Shown piece by piece: positions 1 through 38,337 of a stretch of 38,337 nucleotides of DNA. The stretch is from Acetofilamentum sp. Lineage in GTDB: Bacteria > Bacteroidota > Bacteroidia > Bacteroidales > DYOH01. Below the pieces are notes generated by a model, which saw nothing but the letters and a program-made list of their open reading frames with translations, had not been told where the DNA came from and searched no databases. The DNA lies in assembly GCA_020720625.1 (NCBI GenBank), contig DYOH01000022.1, positions 1,723-40,059 of the forward strand, read 5' to 3'. How positions within the stretch are numbered: position 1 is the stretch's first letter; every line of letters begins with the position of its first letter. Both the position numbers and the translations under genes were made by a program.

Positions 1-230
1 TAAAAAAATTTAAGGGCTTGTTCCTTTGGAATCGGCGCTCATAAAAAAAAATAAGAGCTTGTTCCTTTGGAATCGGCGCTCATAAAAAAAAATAAGGGCT
101 TGTTCCTTTGGAATCGGCGCTCATAAAAAAATTTAAGGGCTTGTTCCTTTGGAATTATCGCTCATAAAAAAAAATAAGGGCTTGTTCCTTTGGAATCGGC
201 GCTCATAAAAAAAAATAAGGCCAAAACTTT
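1..230. repeat. 41-bp tandem repeat array (left end)
   Basis: The motif starting TAAGGGCTTG recurs at 11, 52, 93, 134 and 175 with a constant 41-bp period, and a sixth copy breaks off after 216. Units differ by only a few bases (GAGC for GGGC at 52, ATTAT for ATCGG in the fourth unit). Each unit holds the inverted repeat TTCC-TTT-GGAA and weaker outer pairing between GGGC/GAGC and GCTC. No spacers separate the units. The array runs off the left edge, so its true length is unknown. The remaining 231-485 is AT-rich and shows nothing else beyond a possible promoter at 450. Confidence 0.95.
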
Positions 231-6313: not shown

Positions 6314-6384
6314 TGACCCATGGTGTAATGGTAGCACTTCAGATTTTGGTTCTGTCAGTTAAGGTTCGAATCCTTATGGGTCAA
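6314..6384 (+). tRNA. tRNA-Gln (anticodon TTG)
   Basis: The sequence folds as a complete cloverleaf. The acceptor stem is TGACCCA/TGGGTCA with A as discriminator. The D stem is GTG/CAC, the anticodon loop TTTTGGT gives anticodon TTG (UUG in RNA), and the T arm is TAAGG-TTCGAAT-CCTTA. The anticodon stem has a T-T mismatch at its outer pair (27-43). CCA is not encoded; ACA follows. It decodes CAA/CAG. U34 of this tRNA is a known target of MnmH, which is also encoded in this window. It has its own promoter and terminator, so it is a single-gene unit. I found no second copy of its 3' end nearby, so nothing marks it as an integration site. Confidence 0.95.
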
Positions 6385-36420: not shown

Positions 36421-36951
36421 ATGAACAAAAAAGCATTCTATTTAGCCTTTATCCTCATTTTGTATACAAGTACCTTTAATGCTTGTATCGAAATCGAAGA
36501 ATATCCGGAAATACCGGAAATAAGCTTCAAGGATTTCAGTATGACATTAACAACCGACATTTTAGGAAATGTAGTGCAAAAAGCCAAACTCACTTTTCAT
36601 GTTGTTGACGGCAATGGAGATATTGGGTTACAGGATTCGGATACTATTGGCGTATTCTCGCCCGACAGTATCTATTATAATGATTTGTTTTTAACCCTTT
36701 TCGAAAAAATTGATGGTGAGTTTGTCGAAAAGCAATTAATAGTGCCACACCGATACAGAATTCCTTATGTTGAGCCACAAGGCCAGGTAAAAGTACTGCT
36801 TGCCGACATACAAATAGCCATTGACTATACCAAAGGTACATTTAAAAGCGATACCATTATGTACAGTTTTTATCTGTACGACAGAGCGCTGAATAAAAGC
36901 AATGTGGCAGAAACGCCAGAATTATCAATTAAAGAACTACTTAGTAAATAA
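36421..36951 (+). CDS. small lipoprotein
   Basis: 176 aa from ATG at 36421; a longer frame adds seven residues before the signal peptide and is less likely. A lipoprotein signal peptide (MNKKAFYLAF then ILILYTSTFNA) ends at C22, followed by acidic residues (IEIEEYPEIPEI) as in surface-exposed Bacteroidota lipoproteins. The mature part is strand-rich, with VVDGNGDIGLQDSDTIGVF, FHV and a closing SFYLYDRALNKSNVAETPEL. This looks like a beta-sandwich or Ig-like domain. It lies between a terminator and engB, 7 bp before the latter, so both may share a transcript. Function unknown. Confidence 0.82.
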   Translation: MNKKAFYLAFILILYTSTFNACIEIEEYPEIPEISFKDFSMTLTTDILGNVVQKAKLTFHVVDGNGDIGLQDSDTIGVFSPDSIYYNDLFLTLFEKIDGEFVEKQLIVPHRYRIPYVEPQGQVKVLLADIQIAIDYTKGTFKSDTIMYSFYLYDRALNKSNVAETPELSIKELLSK

Positions 36952-36958
36952 ATAGACC

Positions 36959-37561
36959 ATGGAGATTAATCAGATTCAATTTGAAAAAAGCAGTGCCGTT
37001 TATACCGAATGCCCTAAAACCAGTAAAGCAGAATATGCCTTTATAGGTCGTTCGAACGTGGGAAAATCTTCGCTCATCAATATGCTGGCACGACAAAAAA
37101 ATCTGGCAAAAACATCATCGCAACCCGGAAAAACCCAGTTAATAAACCATTTTATTGTAAATAACCATTGGTATTTGGTCGATTTACCCGGATATGGCTA
37201 TGCTAAAGTAGGTAAAAACATGCGTGAAAAATGGGAAAAAACTACGGTTGAATATATTACCAAAAGGGAAAATCTTACCTGCGTATTTGTTTTGATAGAT
37301 TCGCGCATACCTCCACAAAAATCTGACCTTGAATTTATGCAGTTTTTAGGTCAAAACGCCATTCCCTTTGTTATCATCTTTACAAAAATAGACAAGCTAA
37401 GCAAAACCCAGTTAGAAAAATCATCGGATGAATTTCTCACCGAAATGGAAAAATATTGGGCTGAGCTACCACCAGTATTTTACAGCTCTGCCACCAAAAC
37501 TGACGGAAGAGAAGATATTTTGCGCTTTATAGCTGATACCAACAAAAATATTACACAATAA
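36959..37561 (+). CDS. engB: ribosome biogenesis GTPase EngB (YsxC/YihA)
   Basis: 200 aa, a single GTPase domain. G1 is [11 protein letters not shown] (about 29-39), the switch is [12 protein letters not shown]3 is [10 protein letters not shown] and G4 is TKID. It takes part in late 50S subunit assembly and is usually essential. It is the third ribosome-assembly GTPase in 4 kb. It begins 7 bp after the lipoprotein gene and is followed by a possible folded RNA and terminator. Confidence 0.97.
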
Positions 37562-37602
37562 ACAACGGCTAATGATATGTGCGCCAGCGACTGCCGCCGT
37601 CG

Positions 37603-37680
37603 GGGTGCAACATATTTTGGCCGGGAAATTTAAAATATGGTGGTATTTGATAAAATATTGAAGAATAATCTGTTGCACCC
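37603..37680 (+). ncRNA. candidate structured RNA downstream of engB
   Basis: GGGTGCAACA (37603-37612) pairs perfectly with TGTTGCACCC (37671-37680). Inside lie CATATTTT/AAAATATG (37611-37618 with 37632-37639) and TATTT/AAATA (about 37644-37657). The result is a closing stem with two inner hairpins. A GC-rich stretch just before it (37581-37607) differs from the AT-rich surroundings. The right closing arm is also used by the terminator hairpin that follows. No family is recognised; it may be an attenuator, a 3'-UTR-derived small RNA, or an inert repeat. Confidence 0.45.
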
Positions 37681-37698
37681 ATACACGGTGCTTTTTTG
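37675..37698 (+). terminator. terminator hairpin after engB
   Basis: GCACC (37675-37679) pairs with GGTGC (37687-37691) around a 7-nt loop, followed by six T (37692-37697). The stem is short but GC-rich. Its left arm overlaps the right arm of the larger fold, so the two structures exclude each other. Confidence 0.65.
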
Positions 37699-37825
37699 TT
37701 GTGGTTTTATTTTTTCTATCGATATTCCACCCTGCCTGGGTGATTTTTTGCATATTTCTTAAATTTCAAAAGCCCCTGATATTTTTGCACGATTAACTTT
37801 ATATGAGTTTAAAACCCACAAAAAG

Positions 37826-38337
37826 TCCTATAAGCCACTTTGCGCGTGCAACAAGGGCATATATGATTTCCTACAAGCACATTTGCGCATGCAACAAGGG
37901 TAAATATGACTTCCAATAAGCACATTTGCGCATGCAACAAGGGTAAATATGACTTCCAATAAGCACATTTGCGCATGCAACAAGGGCATATATGATTTCC
38001 TATAAGCACATTTGCGCATGCCACAAGGGTGTATATGACTACCTATAAGCACATTTGCGCGTGCAACAGTGTATATGACTACCTATAAGCACATTTGCGC
38101 GTGCAACAAGGGTGTATATGACTTCCTATAAGCACATTTGCGCGTGCAACAAGGGTGTATATGACTTCCTATAAGCACATTTGCGCGTGCAACAAGGGTG
38201 TATATGACTACCTATAAGCACATTTGCGCATGCAACAAGGGCATATATGATTTCCTATAAGCACATTTGTGCGTGCAACATAGGCATATATGATTTCCTA
38301 TAAGCACATTTGCATATACAATTAGGTGCAAGATGTA
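37826..38337. repeat. 43-bp tandem repeat array (right end)
   Basis: About twelve units. The TGCGC core (or a variant) starts at 37841, 37884, 37927, 37970, 38013, 38056, 38096, 38139, 38182, 38225, 38268 and 38311. The period is 43 bp except for one 40-bp unit, where three bases are lost after CAAC. Each unit carries CCTATAAGCACATTTGCG, then the inverted repeat TTGC-nnnn-GCAA, then CAAGGG and TATATGA. Variation is concentrated at a few positions (CRTGC, GGGYRTA, GAYTWCC). There are no spacers. Because 43 is not a multiple of three, the open frames here are not real. The array runs to within a few bases of the window edge. Between 37698 and 37826 I see nothing. Confidence 0.95.

Follow-up and report, generated by a model that had tools for sequence, protein, structure and literature searches.

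Palindromic repeats and terminator-like hairpins behind engB in an Acetofilamentum genome: a probable REP-dimer-like cluster that resembles a terminator/antiterminator switch

The question raised by this locus is whether the sequence behind engB works as a terminator/antiterminator switch or only has the appearance of one. The window (the whole stretch of DNA that was analysed, 38,337 nucleotides) carries engB with its stop codon at 37559-37561, and a preliminary description had pointed out, just behind this gene, a perfect 10-bp closing stem that encloses two hairpins and shares its 3' arm with a terminator hairpin. The features of the region are as follows.

36959..37561, + strand: engB (yihA/ysxC), ribosome biogenesis GTPase (NCBIfam TIGR03598, 218.7 bits vs a cut-off of 124.45)
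37566..37623, + strand: hairpin H, whose 3' side holds the 5' arm GGGTGCAACA (fold statistics; leader copies on C53, C78 and C83)
37592..37608, + strand: degenerate left palindrome TGCCGCCGTCGGGGTGC, counterpart of GCACCCCGTAGGGGTGC in the C64 copy (alignments with C64)
37603..37612, + strand: closing-stem 5' arm GGGTGCAACA (inverted-repeat search)
37671..37680, + strand: closing-stem 3' arm TGTTGCACCC (inverted-repeat search)
37675..37697, + strand: terminator-like hairpin T1, 5 bp, loop of 7, with T6 (terminator scan; -6.1 kcal/mol; module also on C53 and C64)
37728..37749, + strand: terminator-like hairpin T2, CACCCTGCCTGGGTG, then A and T6 (terminator scan; -7.3 kcal/mol; on C53 too)
37826..38313, no strand assigned: 43-bp tandem array of about 11 copies (repeat search); the structure does not need the array

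Overlapping pairings and terminator-like hairpins behind engB

The two arms are exact 10-bp complements with a gap of 58 nt, and when the fold is cut at 37603 the MFE structure (-22.2 kcal/mol) is the closing stem enclosing two inner hairpins. The 3' arm does overlap the left side of the terminator-like hairpin GCACC-CATACAC-GGTGC (37675-37691), followed by T6 at 37692-37697, so that the geometry given in the preliminary description is accurate, as is its remark on a GC-rich stretch just before in an AT-rich context (GC 0.81 at 37580-37605 vs 0.37 window-wide). Inverted repeats of 10 bp at a gap of 20-120 are not rare by themselves (the window has 19 word hits, as against a mean of 12.4, an sd of 4.8 and a maximum of 27 in 100 shuffles). 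The window has a single inverted repeat whose 3' arm is at the same time the left arm of a terminator, and 0 of the 100 shuffles have one; such an overlap is what a true, riboswitch-like switch would require, i.e. one in which a ligand or a protein stabilises the stem at 37603-37680. The isolated fold is not unusually stable as compared to shuffled sequences (z -0.95 and -1.52 in two tests), and in the constrained structure of the closing state a stem formed by 37593-37594 and 37596-37600 with 37685-37691 still abuts T6.

The scan gave 4 terminator-like sites in 36500-38337 (shuffles: mean 1.6, sd 1.3); T1 and T2 are among them, and both lie on the strand of engB. T1 is weak (5 bp, -6.1 kcal/mol). 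T2, with its hairpin at 37728-37742, had been missed in the earlier description. The hallmark of intrinsic terminators is a stable hairpin directly before a T-run on the transcribed strand; T1 and T2 both have this form, and a terminator role behind engB is plausible on these predictions.

As had also been stated earlier, nothing codable follows: the + strand of the window has no long ORF 3' of the element, and the next long ORF begins about 1.2 kb downstream (L009:1815), past the 43-bp array and a 100-N assembly gap. A switch would thus have no gene to regulate over this distance, which argues against it. Rfam at gathering score gave a tRNA (6314-6384) as its sole match and none at the element behind engB, and a permissive search of 37500-37850 returned three matches, all far under their own gathering scores; these results, too, speak against a riboswitch-like element.

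A few minor observations concern the surroundings. The ORF at L009:1815-5084 encodes a 1089-aa protein with Sortilin-Vps10/BNR repeats. The unit of the 43-bp array (37826-38313 and L009:1-1430) includes GTGCAACA, an 8-mer that is also present in the 5' arm of the closing stem. The window ends at the 100-N assembly gap, on the other side of which the last array unit is found again along with the sequence that follows it, and at the start of the window (1-220) there is another tandem array with a 41-bp unit and 5.4 copies. Two small frames were considered and rejected as genes. The first, an ATG frame of 41 codons on the + strand across T1 and T2, is taken as spurious, short of a strict exclusion of coding: single-base indels between the copies shift the frame, although parts of the same peptide remain open in the C53 and C64 copies. 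The second is a reverse-strand frame of 94 aa (37466-37750) that has no Pfam match.

Hairpin H and the start of the fold

The predicted structure depends on where the fold is taken to begin. Hairpin H, which is absent from the preliminary description, starts 5 nt past the stop codon of engB and engages almost the entire 5' arm of the closing stem in its own pairs. The folding energy of the segment 37562-37628 is -30.8 kcal/mol (z -3.63), a value reached in 0 of 200 shuffles, and H is already the MFE structure by 37628, about 43 nt ahead of the start of the 3' arm. With each of 8 starts from 36959 to 37566 (3 ends each) the mean pair probability of the closing stem was about 0 and that of T1 was 0.62-0.99, and for the start at 37500 the outcome was unchanged at 20, 25, 30 and 37 C. 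With each of 10 starts from 37570 to 37603 the picture is reversed, the closing stem reaching 0.73-0.96 and T1 only 0-0.22. The second set of values is what a switch would be expected to give; it is opposed by the first, since in transcripts that include 37566 the antiterminator is not predicted to compete. Because the folds that include the upstream part hold the 5' arm in H, the natural transcript is predicted to form H and then T1 by default, and the closing stem is predicted to appear only in folds that lack the upstream part. Of the switch arrangement originally proposed, the terminator part and the overlap of the pairings are real; the alternation between terminator and antiterminator finds no support in the predicted engB transcript.

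The position of H suggests another kind of regulation that should be considered, namely a translation-sensing attenuator built from mobile palindromes. Attenuators of the trp-leader type use 1:2, 2:3 and 3:4 pairings, and here segments 1 (37566-37591), 2 (37599-37623), 3 (37671-37680) and 4 (37687-37691) allow all three on paper. A ribosome at the stop codon may reach as far as the foot of H; it would mask this foot and free the 5' arm, the closing stem would form and transcription would read through, whereas without the ribosome H would form and T1 would terminate. The fold predictions respond in this sense: when pairs were forbidden up to 37568 or beyond, T1 at 0.98 gave way to the closing stem at 0.80-0.96 in 10 out of 10 such masks. 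On the other hand, unlike in trp-leader attenuators, there is no leader peptide, no regulated gene and no conservation found here, and the absence of an evident output gene over about 1.2 kb weighs against this reading too. Moreover, H is predicted to form early and stably, the stem of the closing state still abuts T6, so read-through is not assured, and repeated palindromes by themselves can produce the entire layout. The topology would permit an attenuator that senses the ribosome at the engB stop, but this reading is unsupported and we consider it very unlikely; if it were true, transcription would run into the repeat array, or the length and stability of the engB 3' UTR would change.

Copies in the same genome and searches in related genomes

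The genome is a draft (143 contigs, 3.8 Mb) in which the assembly may have collapsed repeat copies. A second full copy of the element is present on C64 (73% identity over query 36-197, E 2.2e-16). Here two inverted 17-nt palindromes, both of them perfect, stand 65 nt apart, and T6 follows the right-hand member. The corresponding pair in the window is degenerate and 66 nt apart, both of its palindromes having lost pairs relative to C64, and the inner arms in the two full copies are 61 and 62 nt apart. A copy of the right half (90% over query 112-199, E 7.3e-26) lies on C53, where both terminator-like hairpins are present and the T1 module with its T-run stands 60 bp behind leuB. The leader is also present on C83 (80% over query 4-54, E 3.4e-4), and the left palindrome follows it there after 30-odd bases. 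The leader of H, ACGGCTAATGATATGTGCG or a close variant, occurs on C53, C78 and C83, in 3 out of 3 cases directly after another palindrome; the long stem of H is part of the MFE structure in the window and C53 copies and is absent from that of C83 and C78. Altogether the genome has 2 full inverted pairs plus partial copies, and the exact core palindrome occurs at 3 places.

The intact paralogue on C64 is informative with respect to the switch. Its closing duplex (-49.4 kcal/mol, z -5.54; 0 of 200 shuffled sequences folded as well) takes in the two arms of the terminator palindrome and extends to T6, and because the duplex ends there, the supposed antiterminator is in this copy itself a terminator-shaped hairpin. 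Since the repeat units are palindromes, one arm has several possible partners, and mutually exclusive pairings can arise from that alone; the overlap that seemed to favour a switch can therefore follow from the element being made of repeated palindromes.

The copies also bear on the possibility that the region is a neutral remnant, i.e. a set of decayed repeats without a role in transcription, engB being terminated elsewhere or by Rho. The pairs lost from both window palindromes are consistent with decay, and so is the same-family genome (G002), in which the 800 bases read behind engB lack the element, although this is not a clean empty site. Decay is harder to reconcile with the T1 hairpin and its T6, kept in all three copies that have the right half (window, C53 and C64). 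T2 is kept on C53, and its counterpart on C64 (-4.8 kcal/mol) was not reported by the scan. On balance we regard a neutral remnant as unlikely.

In the closing stem, a comparison of the window and C64, the only two full copies, shows 9 of 10 pairs invariant, 1 lost and 0 compensatory. The enclosed helices keep just 67-75% of their cells, which does not favour a switch either. They contain a single pair that is changed on both sides, from A-U to U-A in an inner hairpin; 251 of 500 shuffles matched this, so it is not above the controls. This covariation test, a weak one with n=2 sequences, gives the switch no support.

The searches of other genomes lead in the same direction. The pattern TTGCACCCN5GGGTGCTTTTTT, from which the window copy departs by one base, was found in 1 of 393 genomes of the order, the exact palindrome in 1 of 295 genomes of the order, and the inverted-pair layout in 1 of 247 genomes of the phylum (at exactly two places), each time in the own genome only; note that these counts rest on exact patterns, and that the BLAST and covariance searches are more tolerant. 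BLAST against 60 relatives, including the own genome, gave matches in 3 other genomes, each of just 22-24 nt inside the spacer. A covariance model of 8 pairs, for which two sequences were used, had hits in 19 of the 60 genomes at E up to 1 under stricter filters, the own genome included; in the 59 other genomes a single match fell below 0.01 (G021, 0.0016), and this was a different, GTAGGGG inverted pair. There is thus no convincing homologue outside the own genome in the pattern, BLAST and covariance searches, as far as the sequences tell. Taken with the fold predictions, the terminator-shaped duplex on C64 and the missing compensatory changes, this makes a true terminator/antiterminator switch highly improbable.

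A wider layout, GTAGGGGYG...CRCCCCTAC, is present in 9 of 198 genomes of the order, including the own one, with 25 matches in G021; the controls gave hits in 2 genomes, in one of them 20 vs 2 real. Kinship with these broader GTAGGGG inverted pairs is only suggested by the sequences. The 25 matches in G021, a member of the same order, follow the layout GTAGGGGCGAATTATCATTCGCCC...GGGCGAATGATAATTCGCCCCTAC, form a REPIN-like family and lie on L091, L113, L119, L122, L123 and L124.

With regard to engB itself, the identity is 72% in the same genus (G001) and 57% in the same family (G002), and a search of the named genome collection found only two remote relatives (26% and 22% identity). In G001, which is 78% complete, the element is not behind engB, and the contig ends about 180 bp further on, so this is not a clean empty site; in its place degenerate direct repeats of the TACTGGGTGCTGGT type are seen behind engB (L057:1-185).

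Comparison with REP dimers and other known systems

Our preferred explanation, which we consider likely, is that the region is a low-copy, lineage-specific, REP-dimer-like palindrome cluster from which engB obtains one or two intrinsic terminators. In this lineage, palindromic repeats of the REP-dimer (BIME/REPIN) kind would have been inserted or amplified behind engB. Hairpin H would form first, just past the stop codon, T1 with its T6 would then terminate transcription and T2 with its T6 would serve as a back-up, which amounts to an ordinary 3' end for engB. The long-range 'antiterminator' pairing would be a by-product of the palindromic units and is predicted to lose to H in the natural transcript. 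From the repeats, the copies and the predicted folds we infer that engB transcription runs into the element and stops there, and that the palindromes have spread as mobile repeats.

It is useful to compare the element with the REP dimers, BIMEs and REPINs of Pseudomonas and E. coli. Firstly, the architecture is alike: two inverted palindromes about 65 nt apart lie in an intergenic region behind a gene, and each palindrome can fold on its own or the two together as one long hairpin (PMC3733652, PMC3116915). According to PMC3733652, REP dimers are mostly 20-100 bp apart, REPs are mostly 3' of coding regions, and the partners of a dimer may fold singly or as a single large stem-loop; REPINs are defined in PMC3116915. 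An inverted palindrome pair with a short spacer, as in REPINs, is found in C64, and the window pair is a degenerate form of it. Secondly, there are differences. The copy number is very low, with 2 full pairs, whereas REP families usually exceed 100 copies (PMC2817692). No transposase gene (RAYT) flanked by this palindrome was found. The GTAG tetranucleotide, which REPs have at the foot of the hairpin, is seen as CCGTAGGGGTG in the palindrome loop of C64, where it pairs with CTAC in the dimer; the window has GTCG. Finally, a T6 comes after the right-hand unit in all three copies of it (window, C53 and C64), and in RepRanger it is a T-rich tail that separates terminators from REPs (PMC12306157), so that this unit would be classed as a terminator and not as a REP. 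With so few copies, a T-rich tail and no link to a transposase, we do not file the element as a REPIN; judged by its sequence it has the build of a REP dimer, with a T-run in addition.

As compared to intrinsic (Rho-independent) terminators, the likeness is a GC-containing hairpin followed by T6 shortly past the end of a gene. The difference is that T1 sits within a cluster of repeated palindromes, and that its window copy is a rather weak hairpin. Several points count against a REP-dimer-like cluster with terminator function: the low copy number, the weakness of T1 and the absence of the H stem from the MFE structures of C83 and C78, and further the transposase with a different flanking family, the T-tail and the lack of a clean empty site. 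If the terminator role holds, the locus would be another case of repeats supplying the 3' ends of genes. It also carries a caution, as pairs of inverted palindromic repeats can mimic terminator/antiterminator switches, and a wrong 5' cut of the fold shows one.

The transposase mentioned above is the one Y1_Tnp (PF01797) match of the genome, a gene with one in-frame stop at L049:1317-2076 (C92). An inverted-pair element, CTAAGGTGTAA...TTACACCTTAG, stands on either side of the gene and has 26 matches at E up to 0.01, the self-match and both-strand duplicates included. PMC3733652 and PMC6006769 describe comparable arrangements: TIRYT/TIRtron repeats and the 'atypical secondary structures' of subclass 2.6 TnpA_REP in Bacteroidetes are inverted pairs, sometimes dimeric, linked to tyrosine transposase genes, and Bacteroidetes tyrosine transposase genes are flanked by atypical structures with copies elsewhere (PMC6006769). 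The single gene with inverted-pair elements on both sides resembles these systems; unlike in them, the elements that flank the gene belong to a sequence family different from that of the element behind engB. Pieces of CTAAGGTGTAA...TTACACCTTAG are also present at more than 10 other places of the genome, one of them near the end of the window's contig (C2:44102-44208). Lastly, three contig ends (L010:3440-3929, L012:1-300 and L013:1-410) consist of a dense mosaic of palindromic repeats (e.g. CAACGGCATTCATGCCGTTG, AATTTGGCTTTAGCCCAAATT and CCGTGGCATAAATGCCACGG), and these mosaics may have broken the assembly there.
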